This document shows positions 56,061 to 64,000 of a stretch of 64,000 bases of DNA, in pieces. The translations under genes and the position numbers were made by a program. Source of the DNA: Klenkia taihuensis. Lineage in GTDB: Bacteria > Actinomycetota > Actinomycetes > Mycobacteriales > Geodermatophilaceae. The notes below the pieces were generated by a model, which saw only the letters and a list, made by a program, of their open reading frames with translations, did not search any database and was not told where the DNA came from. The stretch covers positions 62,001 through 126,000 of the forward strand of contig NZ_FOMD01000002.1 in assembly GCF_900112525.1 (NCBI RefSeq). Direction: 5' to 3'. How positions within the stretch are numbered: position 1 is the first letter of the stretch; every line of letters starts with the position of its first letter.

Positions 56061-57932
56061 GTGCCGCCGCGCTCCGCAGCGACCCTCCCCCGGGCCACCG
56101 CCCCGGCCGCCCGGCCGGCCCCGCGGACCCCGCAGGAGCTCGCCCGCGCGCGGGCGGTCGCCCGCCGTCGCGCCCTGGTCGCGCGCGCGGAGGCAGCCGC
56201 GGCGCGCAAGGCCGCCGCCCGGGCCCGCCGCCGGGCCGCCCTCACCCGCTGGACCCACCGCGCCGGGGCCGTCACCGGCGCCCTGCTCGTGGTCCTCGTG
56301 GGTGCCGTCGTGGTCTCCGGCGTGCAGCCGGCCACCCCCGCCGCGGCCTCGGCACCGCTGGACCTCGCCGCGCAGGCCACCCAGCTGCGTGAGCAGCTGA
56401 CCGCCACCACCACCGACCTGCAGGCCGCCCGCGCCGGTGTCACGGCCGCCGCCACCGACCTGGCCACCGCGCAGGCCGACCTCGCCGCGGCGCAGGCCGC
56501 GCTGAGCACCGCGCGCGCCGCCGTCGGCACCGGCGCCGGCGCGCTCTACCGCGGCACGCCCGCCGACCGCGCCGTCGCCGCCGGCTTCCCCGCCGGCACC
56601 GACCTCGCGGTCGCCGGCTCGGTGGCCGTGGTCGCCGAGCGCGCCGCCCAGCAGCTGGCCGGGCTGACCCGCACCGCCCAGGACGCCGAGGCCGCCGTCG
56701 CGCACGCGCAGCGCCGGGTGGGCGCGGCGCAGGCCGTCCTCGACGACGCGCACGGCCGGATCACCGCCGTCACCGACGCCGCCCGCGCCCGGGCCGAGCA
56801 GCAGCCCGCCGTGGTCACCGCCGCGCTCGCCGGCCTGCCCGCCGCACCCACGTCGTCCGAGCAGCAGGCGACCGACGACGCCGCCCGCACCGCCTGGCAG
56901 GCGCGGCTGAACGCCCTGTCCGCCGCGGGCATCACCCTGCCCACCGCCGCCCAGCTGCGTGCCGGCGACCTGCCCGGCGGTCTCAGCCCGGCCCGCGACG
57001 CCGCCGGCGCGCCGATCGCCGGTGCCGCCGTCGGCGTGGTGGACGGCGCCGTGGTGCCCGTCCCGTCGGCGGAGGCCGCCGCCGCCGTCAGCTTCGCCTT
57101 CGCCCAGCTGGGCACGCCCTACTCCCCCGGCGGCAGCACCCCCGCCGGCATGGACTGCGGCGGGCTGACCGCCGCCGTGTGGACCTCCGCCGGGACCGCC
57201 CTGGGCACCGGCCTGGTCGACCAGTGGTCCGCCGGCACGGTCGTCCCGGCCGGGCAGCTGGAAGCCGGGGACCTCGTCTTCGGCATCGACCCGCTGCTGG
57301 GGCTGGACGACGTCGGCGTCTACGTCGGCGACGGCCAGGTGGTCACCGCCTCGGCCCGGCAGGCGCAGGTGGTCGTCGCCGGGCTGCCCGAGGGCGCCAC
57401 CGCCGTCCGCACGTCGCTGCCCGTCGACGTGCCCAACGCCGCACCTCCCGGGACCGGGTCCCTCGTGGCCACCTGCGGCGCACTGCCCGCGGCGGCCACC
57501 GTCGCCGGCGCCCCGGTCGACCCCGCCTGGGGCGGGTGGTCCAACGGCCGCATCCCGGCCTCGACGCTGTGCCCGATCGGTGGCGGGCAGCTGCTGCGCT
57601 GCGACGCGGCCGCGGCCTACACCGCGCTGGACCGGGCCTTCCAGCAGGCCTTCGGCACCCCGCTGTGCATCACCGACTCCTACCGGTCCTACGCCGCGCA
57701 GCTGGACGCGCACGTCCGCAAGCCGCGGATCACCGCGGTGCCCGGCACGTCCCACCACGGGTGGGGCCTGGCCGTGGACCTGTGCGGCGGGGTGAACGTG
57801 TTCGGCACCCCTCAGCACGACTGGATGGTCGCCTACGCCGGCCACCTGGGCTGGGTGCACCCGGACTGGGCGCAGGCCGGCGGCAGCAACCCGGAGCCGT
57901 GGCACTGGGAGTTCGGCCACCTGGCCGACTGA
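56061..57932 (+). CDS. Membrane-anchored NlpC/P60-like and VanY (M15) fusion cell-wall protein
   Basis: A 623-residue protein: basic N-terminus (about 1-65), a membrane helix (about 70-92), an Ala-rich coiled coil (about 100-160, and 190-240), an NlpC/P60 domain (about 335-440) and a VanY-type D-Ala-D-Ala carboxypeptidase (about 490-623). VanY ligands are clear: SYRSYAAQ, SHHGWGLAVDL and PWHWEF. In the NlpC domain the Cys is present (MDCGGLTAAVW), but the usual catalytic His is Asp (LDDVGVYVGDG) and the third residue is Thr (VVTAS), so it is probably a binding domain. Likely trims peptidoglycan stems at the surface. Confidence 0.85.
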   Translation: MPPRSAATLPRATAPAARPAPRTPQELARARAVARRRALVARAEAAAARKAAARARRRAALTRWTHRAGAVTGALLVVLVGAVVVSGVQPATPAAASAPLDLAAQATQLREQLTATTTDLQAARAGVTAAATDLATAQADLAAAQAALSTARAAVGTGAGALYRGTPADRAVAAGFPAGTDLAVAGSVAVVAERAAQQLAGLTRTAQDAEAAVAHAQRRVGAAQAVLDDAHGRITAVTDAARARAEQQPAVVTAALAGLPAAPTSSEQQATDDAARTAWQARLNALSAAGITLPTAAQLRAGDLPGGLSPARDAAGAPIAGAAVGVVDGAVVPVPSAEAAAAVSFAFAQLGTPYSPGGSTPAGMDCGGLTAAVWTSAGTALGTGLVDQWSAGTVVPAGQLEAGDLVFGIDPLLGLDDVGVYVGDGQVVTASARQAQVVVAGLPEGATAVRTSLPVDVPNAAPPGTGSLVATCGALPAAATVAGAPVDPAWGGWSNGRIPASTLCPIGGGQLLRCDAAAAYTALDRAFQQAFGTPLCITDSYRSYAAQLDAHVRKPRITAVPGTSHHGWGLAVDLCGGVNVFGTPQHDWMVAYAGHLGWVHPDWAQAGGSNPEPWHWEFGHLAD

Positions 57933-57959
57933 CCAGTGCGACGGGGCCGAGCCCGGGGA

Positions 57960-58733
57960 TCAGGCCCAGGGGAGGTCGGCGAGCTCCCGCCAGGGCAGCA
58001 CGACGCAGGGCTCGACGCCCTCGCCGGCCAGCCGCGCGGCGACACCGCGGGGTGCCCAGGCGACGGGCCGGCCGGGGGTGACGACGACGCTGCCGTCGGC
58101 CAGCAACAGGCCGAGCTCGGCGGACCGGGCGACGACCTGCTCGGGTGCCGCGAGGGCGGCGGTGGCCAGCAGGGGCGCGTCGGCGTCCAGCAGCAGCACC
58201 GGTCCCTCGACCGAGCAGCGGACGACGACGTCGGCCGCGCGGGCGCGGGCGGCGTCGCGGACGGCGAGCACGTCGAGGGCGCTGGTGAACGGGTGCGGCG
58301 TCCAGCCGACGAGCCGGTCCCCGCGGGCCACGGCGACCTGCCAGGCGAGGTCGTCGCCGGCGGGGCCGGCCCACGCGAGGACGGCGACACCGCGGCGGGC
58401 GGCCTCGGCGTCGGTCACCGGCCGCCGGTCCAGGTGCTCGAGCAGGGCCCGGTCCAGGCCGGCGGGTCCGAGGTCGGCGCCGGTAGATGACAGCTCCTCC
58501 GCCAGGTCGGCGAGGTCGACGCGCCAGACGCGCTCGTCCTCCTCGACCAGCAGGGCCGGGTGGCGGACGTCGTCCTCGACCTGCAGGCGCAGGCCGCGTG
58601 CGCCGGTGGCGCACAGCCGGGTGGTCGCGGCGACCAGGTCGTCGAGGTCGCAGGTGCGGCGGTCCAGGCGGGTCAGCAGGCGCAGCGGTGCGCCGAGGGC
58701 GGGCACGCCCGGGAGGTCAGAGGGAGCGGCCAC
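57960..58733 (-). CDS. Hypothetical protein in the sigma-like operon
   Basis: A 257-residue cytoplasmic protein, not recognised. LGAPLRLLTRLDRRTCDLDD at the start, an acidic middle (VEDDVRHPALLVEEDERVWR), and many Asp/Val/Ala segments up to WRELADLPWA. No membrane segment or known catalytic motif. Its ATG overlaps the upstream gene by 17 nt, so it is translated from the same message as the 145-residue protein and the sigma-like factor. Confidence 0.65.
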   Translation of the reverse strand: MAAPSDLPGVPALGAPLRLLTRLDRRTCDLDDLVAATTRLCATGARGLRLQVEDDVRHPALLVEEDERVWRVDLADLAEELSSTGADLGPAGLDRALLEHLDRRPVTDAEAARRGVAVLAWAGPAGDDLAWQVAVARGDRLVGWTPHPFTSALDVLAVRDAARARAADVVVRCSVEGPVLLLDADAPLLATAALAAPEQVVARSAELGLLLADGSVVVTPGRPVAWAPRGVAARLAGEGVEPCVVLPWRELADLPWA

Positions 58734-59154
58734 CGGTGAGCGCGGCGCGCACCGGGGGCGTGAGCTCGGGCAGGCTGAGGGCGCAGGCCAGCTCCATGGC
58801 CGAGAGCCGGACCGGGAGCGTGTCGGGGTCCCAGCCGGTGACCAGGCGGACCCGGGCGGCCGAGGAGGGCCAGACCACGTCGCGGGCGCGGGCCACGTGC
58901 AGCTCGGTGAGCACGTCCACCAGGCGGTCGGCGGTGGTGGCGGGCAGGTCCGCGCGGGTCAGCGCGGCCTCGATGCTGGCGGCGAGCGCGTCCCGATCTG
59001 CGGCCGACAACCAGTGCGGCACGAGGACCACCCGGGTCGACTGCTCGTAGACCATCGACATCGTCGACACGCTCCCCTTGCGCTCCAGGACGGTCCCGTA
59101 CGGCTCTCCCGTCCCACTGACCTCATCTATCGGCAGGAGAGCGCACTCATCCAT
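58717..59154 (-). CDS. Hypothetical protein directly after the sigma-like factor
   Basis: A 145-residue protein, unrecognised. MDECALLPIDEVSGTGEPYG, then a hydrophobic strand MVYEQSTRVVLVPHWLS and helical DRDALAASIEAALTRADLP. The ATG is 5 nt after the sigma-like stop, implying tight coupling, so an anti-sigma-like partner is one possibility (pure inference). An internal start at MSMVYEQ preceded by AAGGGGAG would give a shorter product. Confidence 0.6.
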   Translation of the reverse strand: MDECALLPIDEVSGTGEPYGTVLERKGSVSTMSMVYEQSTRVVLVPHWLSAADRDALAASIEAALTRADLPATTADRLVDVLTELHVARARDVVWPSSAARVRLVTGWDPDTLPVRLSAMELACALSLPELTPPVRAALTGGRSL

Positions 59155-59159
59155 CCGAG

Positions 59160-60230
59160 TCAGCCGGCCAGTTCGAGCAGGCGGTCCTTGAGCACGCGCT
59201 CGGCGCGGTCCGCGTGCACGTTCATGTTGCGCACGGAGGTGCCGAGGTCGGCCGAGAGCTGCGTCTTGGTCTGCCCACCCCAGGTGGTGAGGTACCAGGT
59301 CACCCAGCCGAGCACGTTCGGCTGGCCGGCGCGCTGGTCGGGGCGGGCGGTCACGTCGGGCGCGCAGGCCGCGGTGAGGGCGTGCGAGAGCAGCGTCTGC
59401 TCGGCCTCGCCGAGGATCTCGTCGGGGGCCTGCGCGGTGTCGGGCAGCAGGTGGTCGGCGCCGTCGGGGACGCCGTCCAGCGACTGGAGGTTGCGCAGCC
59501 CGTTGAGGGTCGCGACCGACTGGGCGTTCTTGCGCAGCACGGCCACGCTCTGCCCCAGCAGGTCGGCCAGCTCGCGCTCGGTCGGGCGCCGCTGGTGCTC
59601 GGCGATGAAGGCGGCGACGGCCTTCTGCTGCTTGTTCTCCGTGTCGGTGGCGGTGCGCCCGAAGGCGGCCCGGCCCAGGTCGTGCACCCACTTGGACAGC
59701 TGGGTGGCCAGGAAGGCGCCGAAGGGCACCCCCTTGGTCTCGTCGTACTGCGCGACGGCCTTGAGCACCCACTCGCTGACCTGCTGCACGACGTCGTCGT
59801 TGTCCGGGATGTGCAGCCGGATCGTGCTCATGTTCCGCTGCAGCCGCTTGAGGCTGACCGGCCCGTAGTGCCGGCACAGGTCGGCGAGGAACTGCGGCGG
59901 CAGGTCGCGGGGCGCCCTCCGCCGCACCCCGGTCTCGGCGCGCAGGCCGATCGTGCGGTAGCCCTGGACGGCGCACCAGTTCTTCACCAGCGCCGACAAC
60001 GCCGCCGCCTGGCCGGCGTCGCCGTCGACCCGGTACAGGCCCTCGCCCTCGTCGAGGGTGACGGTGACGCCCGCGGGCAGCGCCGCGCGGAACTCGCCCA
60101 TCGGCAGCTCGCGCTCGGTGCGGAAGTGCACCCGGTCGCGCAGCGTGATGGGCGTGCTGGCCCAGGCCTCGTCCTCGGTGATGCCCCCGAAGACGAGGGG
60201 GGCGGTGGACCTGCGTGGCGGCTCGGACAC
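59160..60230 (-). CDS. Divergent sigma-70-like factor with an extra N-terminal domain
   Basis: A 356-residue protein. Residues about 1-120 are unrecognised. From about 150, DNDDVVQQVSEWVLKAVAQYDETKGVPFGAFL (seen as VVQQVSEWV, YDETKGVPFGAFL) matches sigma region 2 helix pattern, HQRRPTERELADLLGQ matches region 3, and the end TKTQLSADLGTSVRNMNVHADRAERVLKDRL (as TQLSADLGTSVRNMNVH) resembles the region 4 HTH. GTG start with AGGAG 7 nt upstream. It precedes two unknown genes in an operon next to csrA and flagellar genes. Role as a flagellar or stress sigma factor is inferred. Confidence 0.65.
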   Translation of the reverse strand: MSEPPRRSTAPLVFGGITEDEAWASTPITLRDRVHFRTERELPMGEFRAALPAGVTVTLDEGEGLYRVDGDAGQAAALSALVKNWCAVQGYRTIGLRAETGVRRRAPRDLPPQFLADLCRHYGPVSLKRLQRNMSTIRLHIPDNDDVVQQVSEWVLKAVAQYDETKGVPFGAFLATQLSKWVHDLGRAAFGRTATDTENKQQKAVAAFIAEHQRRPTERELADLLGQSVAVLRKNAQSVATLNGLRNLQSLDGVPDGADHLLPDTAQAPDEILGEAEQTLLSHALTAACAPDVTARPDQRAGQPNVLGWVTWYLTTWGGQTKTQLSADLGTSVRNMNVHADRAERVLKDRLLELAG

Positions 60231-60360
60231 CGGGTGACTCCTGTCGTCGGGTCGGATCTCGGGGGAAGACGGCCCGCCGACGAGGAGCCGGCGGGCCGCG
60301 GGATCGCGTCTCGGTCGAGGACGAGCTGCGAGGTGGTGCTGGGACGTGCGGGGTTCGCGC

Positions 60361-60864
60361 TCAGGCGCTGACGGCGCCGAGCACCTCGGACTGCCAGACC
60401 GGCTCCGCGGTCAGCGGCCGGTCACCGGCGCGCAGGAACGGCGCGACGACCGCGCTCTCCTCGGCGGTGGGCTCGGTCGCGTAGACCGGCATGTGGTCGT
60501 AGAGGACCGTGAAGAGGTCCGAGACGAAGCCGTAGGCGGCCTGCGCGGCCGGGCTGAAGCGGGCGACCTCCAGCCGCGGGCCGAGGTCGACGGCGACGGT
60601 GATGCGCAGGACGCGGTCGTCCTTGCTCAGGCCGGCGAGGCTGACCGGGACGCCGGCGTGCTCGGTGGCGAGCTGCGCCAGCGCGGTCAGGCACTTGCGC
60701 GCGGCCGCCCGGCGGGGGCGCAGCTGCACGTGCACGACGAGGTGGTCGGTCTCGTCGCGGTCGGCGTCGGCCGGTGCCGCGAGCAGGACGGGACCCGTCG
60801 AGGTCGAGCCGGTCATCCGGTCGAGGTCGACGCCGTCGGTGGTGTCGGTCGCGCTGTGTCGCAT
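60361..60864 (-). CDS. Hypothetical protein between csrA and the sigma-like gene
   Basis: A 167-residue protein, unrecognised. An N-terminal Thr/Asp-rich tail (about 1-35) precedes HLVVHVQLRPRRAAARKCL, helical and beta segments, and a C-terminal helix ending EVLGAVSA. No membrane helix. The ATG has GGGGG upstream. It lies 130 bp before the sigma-like gene and 110 bp after csrA on the same strand. It does not look like FliW, the usual CsrA partner. Confidence 0.6.
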   Translation of the reverse strand: MRHSATDTTDGVDLDRMTGSTSTGPVLLAAPADADRDETDHLVVHVQLRPRRAAARKCLTALAQLATEHAGVPVSLAGLSKDDRVLRITVAVDLGPRLEVARFSPAAQAAYGFVSDLFTVLYDHMPVYATEPTAEESAVVAPFLRAGDRPLTAEPVWQSEVLGAVSA

Positions 60865-60974
60865 CCTGGTTGCCCCCTGTCACGTGCTTGGGGAGAAGGA
60901 TTGCGCACCGGGGGGTCGGAGTTGAGCCGAAACGAGGTTCGTGTCGCCCAACTACGGACGGATTCGTGGGCAGA

Positions 60975-61271
60975 TCATGCCGAGGAACGGGCCGCCGTGT
61001 CGCTCGTCGCGGCGACCGCCTGTGTGCCAGCTGCGGACGCCCTGGTCCCACCCAGCGCGGCGGTCAGCGCACCGACCGCGTCGGCTGCCACGCGCGCGGC
61101 CAGCCGGCGGGCTGCGGCGATCTGCTCGTAGACCTCCTCGCGGTGGATGGACACCTCGCGGGGGGCCTTGAAGCCGAGCCGGACGGTGTTGCCGCGGACC
61201 TCGACGACGTGCACCTCGATGTCGTCGCCGATGCGGATGGTCTCGCCGATCGTGCGGGTGAGCGTGAGCAC
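60975..61271 (-). CDS. csrA: CsrA carbon storage/flagellar RNA-binding regulator with C-terminal extension
   Basis: Post-transcriptional regulator binding GGA motifs near ribosome sites. The core (residues 1-55) is standard: LTLTRTIGETIRIGDDIEV, VVEVRGNTVRLGFKAPREV, SIHREEVYEQI, including the Arg of LGFKAP...R. Typical CsrA is 60-75 residues; here 98, with an Ala-rich tail of about 35. GTG start with GGAGGGG upstream. It follows flgL on the same strand, the usual flagellar position, but fliW is absent. Confidence 0.93.
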   Translation of the reverse strand: MLTLTRTIGETIRIGDDIEVHVVEVRGNTVRLGFKAPREVSIHREEVYEQIAAARRLAARVAADAVGALTAALGGTRASAAGTQAVAATSDTAARSSA

Positions 61272-61276
61272 CAGTA

Positions 61277-61283
61277 CCCCTCC
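61277..61283 (-). promoter_or_regulatory. csrA ribosome-binding site containing a GGA motif
   Basis: The minus strand reads CACGGAGGGG before the csrA start. The CGGAGG core is close to a CsrA binding site (A/CnGGA), so CsrA may block its own translation. Sequence seen; autoregulation inferred. Confidence 0.4.
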
Positions 61284-61407
61284 GTGGGTGTCGGTGGATG
61301 CGGCGGCGTCCTGCCGTCGCGGGTCGTGGACCCGCCATCATGATCGGCAGTCGCGCAACCCGACACGCACCGGCCGTGGTGCGGGTGGGGTGCGCGTGCC
61401 CGGTGGG

Positions 61408-62295
61408 TCAGCGGATGAAGTCCACCAGCGAGGTCTGCACGGACTGCGAGCTGACCGCCAGTGCCGCCTCGTAGGAGTTCTGCCTGATCTTGAGCTCGAG
61501 GTAGGCCTTGCCGGTGTCGATGCTCTCGACGTCCCCGAGCTGGGAGCTGAGCGAGAGCGCGACGTCGGCGTTGACCGCCTTGACCGTGTCGACCCGGTTC
61601 ACCCGGACGCCGACCTCGGTGCGCGCCGCGGTCAGCCGACCCAGGGCTGCGTCGATGTCCCCGATCGAGGCGGTGAGGTCACCCGTCGGCGTCGCCGTCA
61701 TCTCGCCCGCGATGCGCTGCACGAGGGCGAACACGTCGTCCCCGGCCGGACCGAAGGCGGTCGGCCCGTCGACGTCGGTGCGCACCGTCTCGGTCGGGGA
61801 CACCCGCACGTCGAGGGCCACCCCGGTGCGGCCGGTGAAGGCACCGGTCGTCGGGTCGTAGGCCTGCGAGCCCGAGGTCGCCCCGCCGAAGACGGGGCGA
61901 CCGTCGACGGTGCGGTTGGCCATCGACAGCAGGCCGTCGCGCAGGCCGGACACCTCGATCGACAGCGCCTTGAGCGCGTCGGGGCTCTGCGCGCCGGTGT
62001 TGGCGGCCTGCGTGGTCAGGTCGCGGACCCGCCGCAGCAGGTCGCCCATGGTGGCCAGTGCACCGTCCGCGGCGGCCAGCGTGGTGCCCGCCTGCGAGAT
62101 GTTGGCCGTGTACTGGTCGTTGGCGGCGAGGTCGGTGCGCGTGCGCATCGCCGTGGACGTGCCGCTGGGGTTGTCCGAGGGCTTGGTGATCGCCCGACCG
62201 GACGAGATCTGGTCGTTGAGCAGGGAGATCGCCGACAGGTTGGCGCCCATGTTGCGGATGTTGTTGTCCGCCAGGGTGCGCTGGGTGATGCGCAT
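61408..62295 (-). CDS. flgL: Flagellar hook-associated protein 3 (hook-filament junction)
   Basis: A 295-residue junction protein. The flagellin-like N-terminus MRITQRTLADNNIRNMGANL with ISSGRAITKPSDNPSGT and the C-terminal helix KIRQNSYEAALAVSSQSVQTSLVDFIR (as YEAALAVSSQ, LVDFIR) are diagnostic. Exported through the flagellar type III system with no cleavable signal. ATG starts 4 nt after flgK; GGAAGG upstream. Confidence 0.94.
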   Translation of the reverse strand: MRITQRTLADNNIRNMGANLSAISLLNDQISSGRAITKPSDNPSGTSTAMRTRTDLAANDQYTANISQAGTTLAAADGALATMGDLLRRVRDLTTQAANTGAQSPDALKALSIEVSGLRDGLLSMANRTVDGRPVFGGATSGSQAYDPTTGAFTGRTGVALDVRVSPTETVRTDVDGPTAFGPAGDDVFALVQRIAGEMTATPTGDLTASIGDIDAALGRLTAARTEVGVRVNRVDTVKAVNADVALSLSSQLGDVESIDTGKAYLELKIRQNSYEAALAVSSQSVQTSLVDFIR

Positions 62296-62299
62296 CAGG

Positions 62300-63691
62300 T
62301 CACCTTCCGACCAGTCCGGTCTTGTTGATCAGGACGTCGAGCATCTCGTCGAGGGCGGTCACCACACGGGCGGCCGCGGCGTAGGACTGCTTGAAGACCA
62401 GGAGGTTGGTCATCTCCTCGTCGAGGGAGACCCCGCTGACCGACAACCGCGCCTGGTCGACCTGGCCCAGCACCGTGCTGGCGGTGGTCGCCGCGCCGGC
62501 CGCGCCGCGCGAGGCGATGCCCAGCGCGGTGATCATCTGCCGGTAGGTGGCGTCAGGGCCGGCCGCGGCCTTGCCGAGCTGGGCGACCTGGTCCGCCAGC
62601 GCCCCGTCGGCCGAGGCGTCGGTCCCGGCCGGCGGGTTCGCCGCAGCGGCCAGCTCGGCCGGGTCCGTGATGACCACGGTGATGTCGCGGGCCGAGCTGC
62701 CGCCGTAGAGCGCCGTGCCCGGCGCGCCGGCCTTGTCGTACCCCGTGGCCAGGACGGCGTTGACGCCGGTCACGGCCAGGGCGACCTGGTCCAGCTGCGC
62801 CTGGTAGGAGGGCAGGACGGTGTTCATCGCGTCGAGCTGGCCGCCCACGGTGCCGCCGGGCTGCAGGACGGAGCCGCCGGGCGCGACGGCCAGCCGCACC
62901 GGGGCGGTCGCCATGGTCAGGGGGTCGGTCCCGCCGGTCAGGGCGAGCTTCGACGCGCCGGTGCCGCTGACCAGCACGTTGCCGTCCACGACGACGTCCA
63001 CCATGCCGTTGTCGCCCTCGACCCCGGTCGCACCCAGGGTCTTCGACAGCAGGGCCACCAGACCGTCCCGCTGGTCCTGGAGCTCGTTGGCCGGGTTCCC
63101 GTTGCCCTGGGAGTCCTGGATGGTCCGGTTCAGCTGCGCGATCTGGGCGAGCGTGGCGTTGGCCTCGTCGACCAGGTCCGTGGCCTCGAGCCGGGTGTTC
63201 GACCACTGGGCGTCGACGGCCGCGCTGGCCGTGCGCAGGCCCTTGGCCAGCGCGTCGGCCGACGAGAGCACGGCGATCCGCGACGAGGTGTCGGTGGGCC
63301 GGGTGGACAGCTGGCTCCAGGCGGCCGAGGTCTTGGTCAGCAGGCTCTGGATGCCGGTGTCCCCGGGCTCGCCGAAGGAGGTCTCCAGCTGGCTGTAGGT
63401 GGCCGCCGTGGCCGCGGCCTGGCTGGCCAGCCCGGCCTGCTGCTGGGCGCGGCGCTCGAGGAACGCGTCGCGCACGCGGATGACCTTCTCGGCGCTGACG
63501 CCGTTGCCGGGGCTGTCCTCGCGGGACTGCAGGCCGTAGGCCGAGTGGCTGGCCAGCGACTGCATCTCCACCCGCTGGCGGGTGTAGCCGACGGTGTTGG
63601 CGTTGGCGACGTTCTGGCCGGTGACGTCGATGGCGCGCTGCTGGGCGGCCAGCGCCCGGGAGGCGACGTTGAGGGAGGAGAAGCCGCTCAC
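62300..63691 (-). CDS. flgK: Flagellar hook-associated protein 1
   Basis: A 463-residue hook-filament junction protein. N-terminal SGFSSLNVASRALAAQQRAID with TGQNVANANTVGYTRQRVEM and the C-terminal VSLDEEMTNLLVFKQSYAAAARVV and LDEMLDVLINK blocks are hallmarks of FlgK. The GTG overlaps the stop of the FlgN-like gene. The flgN-flgK-flgL order is standard. Confidence 0.95.
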   Translation of the reverse strand: MSGFSSLNVASRALAAQQRAIDVTGQNVANANTVGYTRQRVEMQSLASHSAYGLQSREDSPGNGVSAEKVIRVRDAFLERRAQQQAGLASQAAATAATYSQLETSFGEPGDTGIQSLLTKTSAAWSQLSTRPTDTSSRIAVLSSADALAKGLRTASAAVDAQWSNTRLEATDLVDEANATLAQIAQLNRTIQDSQGNGNPANELQDQRDGLVALLSKTLGATGVEGDNGMVDVVVDGNVLVSGTGASKLALTGGTDPLTMATAPVRLAVAPGGSVLQPGGTVGGQLDAMNTVLPSYQAQLDQVALAVTGVNAVLATGYDKAGAPGTALYGGSSARDITVVITDPAELAAAANPPAGTDASADGALADQVAQLGKAAAGPDATYRQMITALGIASRGAAGAATTASTVLGQVDQARLSVSGVSLDEEMTNLLVFKQSYAAAARVVTALDEMLDVLINKTGLVGR

Positions 63692-64000
63692 AGCGCGCCG
63701 TCCAGGCTGACCGAGCGCGAGGCGCCGGCCTGGGTGCGACCGGTGGCCGAGTAGGTGCGCGGCTGGTCCGGGCGCACGCTCAGCAGCGCCTCGTCGATGG
63801 CGGCCAGGCCGCTGGCGATCAGCTCGCGGTTGGCGTCGGAGAGCCCGCGCAGCTCGCTGACCAGCACCAGCAGCGTCTCGTGGTGCTTGACGAGCAGCTC
63901 GTCCCAGGGGGCGCCGGCCGCCTCGGCGAGGGTGCGCAGCGAGGGGTTGGCCGGCAGGCCGAGCTGGGAGGCGATGGTCTCGGCGACGGCGGCCCGCTCG
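63688..64000 (-). CDS. flgN: FlgN-like flagellar export chaperone (partial, N-terminus beyond window)
   Basis: The final 103 residues of a minus-strand gene running off the right edge. Helical segments with LLVLVSELRGLSDANRELIASGL and a C-terminal tail with TGRTQAGASRSVSLDGAL match FlgN, the chaperone of FlgK and FlgL. Stop overlaps the flgK start (GTGA). Identified by position plus the NRELI region; start not in window. Confidence 0.8.
   Translation of the reverse strand, partial: ERAAVAETIASQLGLPANPSLRTLAEAAGAPWDELLVKHHETLLVLVSELRGLSDANRELIASGLAAIDEALLSVRPDQPRTYSATGRTQAGASRSVSLDGAL

Follow-up and report, generated by a model that had tools for sequence, protein, structure and literature searches.

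Why does a flagellar gene cluster that has its own FliA also carry a barely recognisable sigma-like gene, set among genes of no known family? The question arises from a 64-kb stretch of DNA of Klenkia taihuensis (hereafter the window; the genome is labelled G000, and the window is G000:C7:62001–126000), which belongs to the Geodermatophilaceae, a family of rock- and soil-dwelling bacteria. In this stretch a 356-residue protein, which we call SIG356, is encoded together with three further proteins, P167, P145 and P257. We find that the four genes form a Geodermatophilaceae block that lies behind flgN-flgK-flgL-csrA and is linked to flagella. An earlier note on the window had proposed a lineage-specific flagellar sigma module here. 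The block is indeed family-specific and flagella-linked, and the neighbours of SIG356 are unrecognised; SIG356 is not, however, the flagellar sigma factor, since FliA is present as well.

Sigma-like features of SIG356

SIG356 (59160–60230, minus strand) was compared with known sigma factors by profile searches, a PDB profile search, an AlphaFold2 model and Foldseek. Its best NCBIfam match is FliA_WhiG (TIGR02479), which covers residues 129–254 with an E-value of 2.8e-6 and 27.2 bits and does not reach the cut-off of 189.6. A profile built from 35 SIG356 orthologues gave Streptomyces WhiG (6pfj/6pfv) as its best match in the PDB, with an E-value of 0.005 for 6pfj. Every one of the 50 best Foldseek matches shown for the predicted model is a sigma factor or a model of one with RNA polymerase, WhiG and sigma-28 among them, with E-values of 1.8e-7 to 1.1e-3. 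On this evidence the sigma-like motifs that the earlier note had read in the protein exceed chance but are weak. The sigma2-like part falls at residues ~142–198, the sigma3-like part at ~199–245 and the sigma4-like part at ~276–356, although Pfam returns no match to region 4. Residues ~12–105 are predicted by AlphaFold2 to form an alpha/beta domain with the pattern b-a-b-b-a-b, followed by helices, and residues 11–110 are modelled in blocks with predicted local distance difference test (pLDDT) values of 81–95. Regions 2, 3 and 4 in order, together with a sigma fold, define the sigma-70 superfamily, and both are found in SIG356 at moderate model confidence. Judged by sequence and predicted structure, SIG356 is a very divergent sigma-70-family protein, with FliA and WhiG as its nearest relatives and an extra N-terminal alpha/beta domain.

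The protein is strongly conserved. Across four comparisons (three Klenkia species and a strain deposited as Modestobacter sp. Leaf380, using the tblastn-aligned parts of each gene), the ratio of nonsynonymous to synonymous substitution rates (dN/dS) is 0.074–0.107 for SIG356, the lowest of ten genes each time; gltA gives 0.126–0.199, fliA 0.184–0.222, P257 0.45–0.67 and flgK 0.39–0.77. The closest named relatives by SIG356 (93–96%) are Klenkia species and the same Leaf380 strain, and identity to other genera is 73–79% for SIG356 vs 42–47% for flgK. Invariant positions among the 35 orthologues number 42 of 57 in sigma2, 47 of 81 in sigma4 and, fewer, 38 of 95 in the N-terminal domain. They include every residue from T331 to R342, the sigma4 helix-turn-helix. 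In the core-binding regions 2.1–2.2 the picture is mixed: D146 and Q149 are kept and invariant, and the signature glycines are replaced. A region alignment of nine SIG356, eight FliA and two WhiG sequences of the family places a 14-column insertion in region 4 of SIG356. In the tree SIG356 forms its own clade with support of 100/100, on a stem of 8.4 changes per column that is saturated and does not resolve its placement among sigma factors.

The earlier note had also called FliA not recognisable here. The fliA gene (328 residues; plus strand, L085:2291–3277 in the 20-kb neighbouring locus) starts ~290 nucleotides (nt) past the window end by gene call, so its absence was a window-edge effect. 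It is divergent from flgN, lies ~4 kb from SIG356 and is the first gene of a long run that includes fliC, fliD, fliS and genes of the basal body. Its product matches TIGR02479 with an E-value of 1.4e-42 and 146–147 bits, itself under the cut-off of 189.6. WhiG is encoded elsewhere (G000:C10:1535335) and scores 275 bits, above the family cut-off. With an ordinary FliA present, SIG356 is an additional and much more divergent sigma-like protein, and the idea that it is the family's sole flagellar sigma factor was dropped. FlgM had been called unrecognisable in the window, and this holds more widely: no match to PF04316 was found at E<=0.1 across 21 genomes, a set that includes 13 from the family, although a very divergent FlgM could be missed.

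SIG356 resembles FliA (sigma-28) in the order of its three regions, in the position of its gene in a flagellar cluster and in its best NCBIfam match. It differs in its extra N-terminal domain of ~105 residues, in the region 4 insertion, in scores far under cut-off and in the lack of DWxxRSVR, the part of FliA and WhiG that reads the −10 element. As SIG356 is without this −10 motif, its promoter-directing activity is putative. The cyclic diguanylate switch formed by WhiG and RsiG offers a second likeness, in that WhiG is the best PDB profile match of SIG356 and, in one relative (G072), the block adjoins WhiG. SIG356 is nevertheless not WhiG, which the genome encodes separately, and an RsiG-like role for any block protein was rejected because the c-di-GMP motif of RsiG, E(X)3S(X)2R(X)3Q/H(X)3D, occurs in none of 132 aligned sequences (35, 33, 30 and 34 rows for the four proteins). 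The available text on sigma-SsdA/SipA of Actinoplanes missouriensis (PMC10733313) describes another actinobacterial sigma factor fused to an extra domain, with SsdA linked to motile spores. SsdA is presented there as a SigB/F/G-type factor that bears a STAS domain at its C-terminus and has an RsbW-like partner, whereas the extra domain of SIG356 is N-terminal and has another fold pattern. Pfam finds no RsbW-like or STAS domain in the three neighbours of SIG356.

Distribution and setting of the block

A full-length SIG356 match is present in 102 of 112 family genomes; a 103rd genome (G061) has a weak partial match at the level of other sigma factors. Among 298 genomes of the order, all 51 strong matches fall in the family, and the sole other match (G278) is partial, with 43 bits over residues 151–285. 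Among 396 genomes of the phylum, the K. taihuensis genome alone matches at E<=1e-9. With the best 5–6 candidates scored per genome, neither set contains a match of comparable score outside the Geodermatophilaceae. Searches with P257 and with P167 each gave 28 strong matches out of 200, all in the family, plus five marginal ones for P257 and two for P167.

The distribution of SIG356 follows that of the rod domain PF00460. Among 108 family genomes scored for both, the two occur together in 98 and are both missing from nine; G072 alone has SIG356 without rods, and no genome has rods without SIG356. Absence of these genes from motile relatives and presence in non-motile ones had been named as the pattern that would speak against a flagellar module; SIG356 is instead found in 98 of 98 rod-positive genomes and is missing from nine of 10 rod-negative ones. 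The rod-negative genomes belong to genera g6, g7 and g8, together with one genome that is 70% complete.

The gene order is likewise maintained. All the open reading frames listed by the earlier note are present on the minus strand: P257 (57960–58733), the 145-residue frame, SIG356, P167 (60361–60864), csrA (60975–61271), flgL (61408–62295), flgK (62300–63691) and flgN (63688–63999). Both Pfam and NCBIfam identify csrA, flgL and flgK. The csrA product has 98 residues, of which the family model spans 1–52, leaving a C-terminal extension. flgN is called by Pfam alone, NCBIfam giving no match, and its 5' part lies past the window end (161 residues in full; L085:1689–2174). Conservation of the block beside flgK, flgL and csrA was checked across the family loci and borne out: the order fliA / flgN-flgK-flgL-(fliW)-csrA-P167-SIG356-P145-P257-NlpC/VanY-gltA recurs in Klenkia, Modestobacter, Geodermatophilus, Blastococcus, Goekera and Trujillonella. 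Exceptions were seen at L052, which has an insertion, at L070, where P145-P257 is inverted, and at L051, where P145 and P257 were not found. Next to the block, and convergent to P257, is a conserved gene for a 623-residue protein that joins NlpC/P60 and VanY domains (56061–57932); it is possibly a cell-wall enzyme that serves flagellar assembly or a change of cell form. An Rfam scan of positions 57900–64000 gave no match.

P167, P145 and P257 had been described as unrecognised, and profile searches again give no family above cut-off for any of them. For P167, whose conserved core covers residues ~43–132, Pfam and NCBIfam identify no known family, and a hint of SoxY was under cut-off and dropped. 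The pattern b-a-b-b-a-b, read by eye from the P167 sequence, is common to P167 and the N-terminal domain of SIG356; recognisable homology between the two was rejected by profile comparison (probability 0.3%). Hints of SRP54_N or phage tail I in P145 were also under cut-off and dropped. The P257 model reaches a pLDDT of 90 with AlphaFold2, yet Foldseek returns nothing at E<=0.001 from the PDB or viral libraries.

The gene csrA has its own pattern of company. Of 108 family genomes, 67 encode FliW (PF02623), and these belong to six genera (g2, g3, g4, g10, g11 and g12); it was found neither in the K. taihuensis genome nor in the other eight g1 genomes or in genus g9 (taken as Modestobacter). csrA is retained in Klenkia and Modestobacter loci without detected FliW. 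The 5' leader of fliC (L085:3277–3417, plus strand, with relatives in L033–L084) contains a conserved GCACGGATGC, and two 9-mers of this leader, GCACGGATG and CACGGATGC, each occur in 37 of 45 loci. By eye, GCACGGATGC makes a small hairpin whose loop carries GGA, which resembles a CsrA site.

The single genome with SIG356 and no rod domain shows the block in another setting. In G072 the genes for P167, SIG356 (58% identical), P145 and P257 remain together without flagellar neighbours. They are flanked on one side by a divergent gene for a WhiG-like sigma factor and on the other by two genes that carry the N-methylation motif of type IV pilins (Pfam N_methyl, 6e-10 and 3e-5). No PF00460 was found in this genome, which is 74% complete and in 300 contigs. 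A CTCA-N16-GCCGATA element lies ahead of its P145. Separately, the spacer between a pilin gene and a divergent gene for a 225-residue protein (L089:2383–2657) holds two outward-facing GCCGATG copies, possible WhiG-type promoters.

Promoter and leader elements within the block

The 145-residue frame (58717–59154, minus strand) had been taken to start 5 nt after the SIG356 stop codon. A conserved promoter element overlaps the start at 59154, which is almost certainly wrong. The conserved protein of ~114 residues, to which we apply the name P145, starts at 59061 (58717–59061, minus strand), leaving a gap of ~98 nt. Translational coupling of P145 to SIG356 was rejected because the promoter sits between the two. 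In the window this FliA-class element, assigned from sequence, occupies 59128–59157 on the minus strand, with its −35 part, CGGATGGA, at 59157–59150 and its −10 part, GCCGATA, at 59134–59128.

The element is shared by relatives as CGGGTCSA-N13-CTGCCGAT[AG], and the P145 core starts 18–143 nt downstream. P145 is present in 52 of 55 loci (L032–L084, L088 and L089); L061 and L082 end there, and L051 is without it. The promoter rows were gathered by the pattern GCCGAT[AG], giving 52 rows and 51 distinct loci (L088 duplicates L081), several of the Modestobacter loci being close relatives. As the rows were selected by pattern, the independent evidence is the count of the 9-mer CTGCCGATA: 43 of 51 loci have it upstream of P145, and the highest count of any 9-mer in 20 sets shuffled in two-base blocks is 7. 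Other 9-mers there reach 34 loci because the coding end of SIG356 is included. A search of 16 genomes with the strict P145 pattern gave 13 exact matches, 11 of them within 1.5 kb downstream of SIG356 and the other two both in G106. Matches with one mismatch are no commoner than in a reversed control, so only exact ones carry weight; the K. taihuensis genome has none because the Klenkia copies differ.

Several flagellar genes carry a related signal. In the K. taihuensis cluster the joint promoter pattern precedes fliC (CGGCTCAAG-N15-GCCGTA), fliD and flgN, and the 20 kb of L085 contain six matches, three of them not before a gene, compared with a mean of 0.95 and a maximum of 3 in shuffled sequence. 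WhiG reads a consensus similar to that of FliA, and the P145-P257 unit is probably driven by one of the two. The flagellar −10 GCCGATAA given in the available text of PMC8325347 agrees with the −10 of P145, and the TAAA −35 there differs from that of P145. P145 is parted from SIG356 by ~3.1 kb of inserted DNA in L052 and by an inversion in L070, and in both the promoter stays with P145, so that P145-P257 appears to be an independent unit. In L051 neither gene was found in the 5.6 kb after SIG356. The L052 insertion (L052:9053–12148) carries an open reading frame of 170 residues that we take to resemble a rifampin ADP-ribosyltransferase.

A second candidate element lies in the leader of P167 (60865–60900, minus strand), where, in most relatives, a run of C can pair with the AGGGGG ribosome-binding site. 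Of 50 loci with both flanking genes, L056 and L084 gave no seed match, which left 48 for folding. At least four of the five G residues are paired in 46 of these 48, the hairpin failing to form in L037 and L076, and the mean z-score against shuffles is −2.0. Outer pairs vary on both sides between genera: one position is G-C in Geodermatophilus and T-A in Modestobacter, and the next is T-G or T-A in some genera vs C-G in others, changes that were read from the predicted folds rather than counted statistically. The hairpin suggests that P167, and perhaps SIG356, is controlled at translation, with better support outside the window's own genus. In the spacer between csrA and P167 we also noted, by eye, genus-specific inverted repeats, GGCACA..TGTGCC and ACGGCGAG-T-CTCGCCGT (for example in L058, L064 and the Modestobacter loci L039–L043), which could be operators or attenuators. 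A de novo search upstream of fliA, csrA and P167 found conserved stretches and no motif assignable to SIG356.

Possible roles of the block

We favour a reading that we judge about equally likely to be right or wrong: SIG356 would be an extra, Geodermatophilaceae-specific regulator of the flagellar programme, derived from a sigma-70 factor and working beside ordinary FliA with FliA-driven feedback partners. P167 and SIG356, perhaps on one transcript with csrA, would be translated only once the hairpin that covers the ribosome-binding site of P167 has opened. SIG356 would probably be gated by its own N-terminal domain and by P167; it would dock on RNA polymerase and act at promoters outside the FliA consensus, most likely those of early flagellar genes. 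Active FliA would turn on the flagellin, cap and hook-associated genes and also, through its promoter class and unless WhiG takes this part, P145-P257. P145, P257 or both might then feed back on SIG356 or FliA and fill the place of the undetected FlgM. P145 is like FlgM in being small and under a FliA-class promoter; it differs in having no FlgM match in Pfam or NCBIfam, and binding to FliA is proposed here. The flgM gene has both early and FliA-dependent promoters.

A number of observations tell against this reading. In Pfam the window copy of SIG356 matches Sigma70_r2 at E 0.006 and Sigma70_r3 at E 0.06, both under cut-off, and the G072 copy has no Pfam sigma match at all. The full-length AlphaFold2 model is only moderately confident (pLDDT 69, predicted template modelling score 0.46), and its Foldseek TM-scores are low (0.15–0.24 by query length) because the SIG356 domains are packed unlike those of the matches. 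DWxxRSVR in region 2.4 is present in eight of eight FliA and two of two WhiG sequences; all nine SIG356 sequences have [FYH]GRTAxD instead, two residues shorter. The signature glycines of regions 2.1–2.2 are also replaced, and a Trp, W154, is invariant. With both changes, SIG356 may have lost the ability to bind core or to recognise promoters. No promoter of SIG356's own was identified. The −35 before P145 (CGGGTCSA) departs from the classical TAAA, and this −35 pattern stands before 45 of 52 flgN genes but in only 17 of 45 fliC and nine of 27 fliD leaders. The joint pattern also has six matches away from the flagellar genes, in the first 57.9 kb of the window (shuffle mean 2.05, maximum 5). 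In six Klenkia-group loci the P167 hairpin is weak, with z-scores of −1.4 to +1.5, and in one it does not form. With only a small number of rod-negative genomes, related to one another, the correlation with rods rests on few independent events and not on 108. Since the block of rod-negative G072 adjoins WhiG and pilin genes, flagella may not be the only target.

The altered region 2.4 bears most directly on how SIG356 would act. It could be a sigma-derived antagonist or co-regulator that recognises no −10 element but sits on RNA polymerase, or makes contact with FliA or WhiG, delaying or tuning late flagellar genes as a substitute for FlgM. The loss of DWxxRSVR, the two-residue deletion and the near-invariance of the replacement all fit such a role, as do the 13 family genomes without detected FlgM and the presence, in both settings of the block, of a gene for a FliA-family sigma factor near it. 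All three sigma domains would not be required in an antagonist, however, and the sigma4 helix-turn-helix, whose invariant T331–R342 suggests contact with DNA, is conserved to the same degree as sigma2; we consider this role unlikely, if well worth keeping in view. Simple decay into a functionless pseudo-sigma would account for the low scores to every sigma family and for the stem branch, very long at 8.4 changes per column. It is contradicted by a dN/dS of 0.07–0.11, below that of citrate synthase in all four comparisons, and by full-length matches free of internal stops in 102 of 112 genomes, and we give it virtually no credence.

Two other explanations are compatible with these and with our favoured reading of SIG356 as an extra flagellar regulator. 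The block might regulate appendages controlled by the FliA/WhiG family in general, type IV pili first, and have been recruited to flagella as the flagellated lineage arose. The G072 arrangement between WhiG and pilin-motif genes, with no rod domain found and CTCA-N16-GCCGATA ahead of P145, agrees with this, and the available text of PMC8325347 suggests that Rubrobacter WhiG controls type IV pili. The case comes from one incomplete, fragmented genome, transfer could have run in either direction, and three genomes of the same genus (G073–G075) are without SIG356; we rate it possible, on the lower side of an even judgement. Alternatively P145 and P257 may be late flagellar proteins, such as an export chaperone or glycosylation factors, joined to SIG356 by neighbourhood alone. 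Their own transcription unit with a FliA-class promoter, their separation in L052, inversion in L070 and absence after SIG356 in L051, and the fast evolution of P257 are what would be expected. That all four genes stay together in G072 with no flagellar genes alongside argues the other way, and this explanation seems to us rather doubtful. Still more broadly, and only tentatively, the four genes may form an appendage-control module in which a hairpin-controlled, sigma-derived factor with a sensory N-terminal domain and a changed promoter surface works with feedback proteins of unrecognised families driven by FliA or WhiG, replacing FlgM in the Geodermatophilaceae that carry FliA and, in a relative whose flagellar genes were not detected, joining WhiG and type IV pili; P257 would possibly be a new fold.

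Open-access titles and abstracts on Geodermatophilaceae and Klenkia flagella, Geodermatophilus morphogenesis, Actinoplanes FliA, CsrA-FliW and atypical flagellar sigma factors do not describe the block, which is weak evidence that it is new. The accessible part of a survey of actinobacterial flagella (PMC10746217) looks for FliA, FlgM, CsrA and FliW and names nothing like SIG356. Two Geodermatophilaceae papers, in the parts available, list flagellar genes (fliA in one) without the four genes of the block. For Blastococcus, the available text of PMC9686282 reports flagellar genes, with motility not seen in the strains studied.

The block is probably an extra layer of control over motility in the Geodermatophilaceae. 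As a conserved, family-specific regulator within the flagellar cluster, it would offer a direct genetic handle on the motility switch, and it may show how a flagellar hierarchy runs without detectable FlgM. SIG356 itself presents the case of a sigma-70-family protein that is under very strong selection after the loss of the usual −10 motif.

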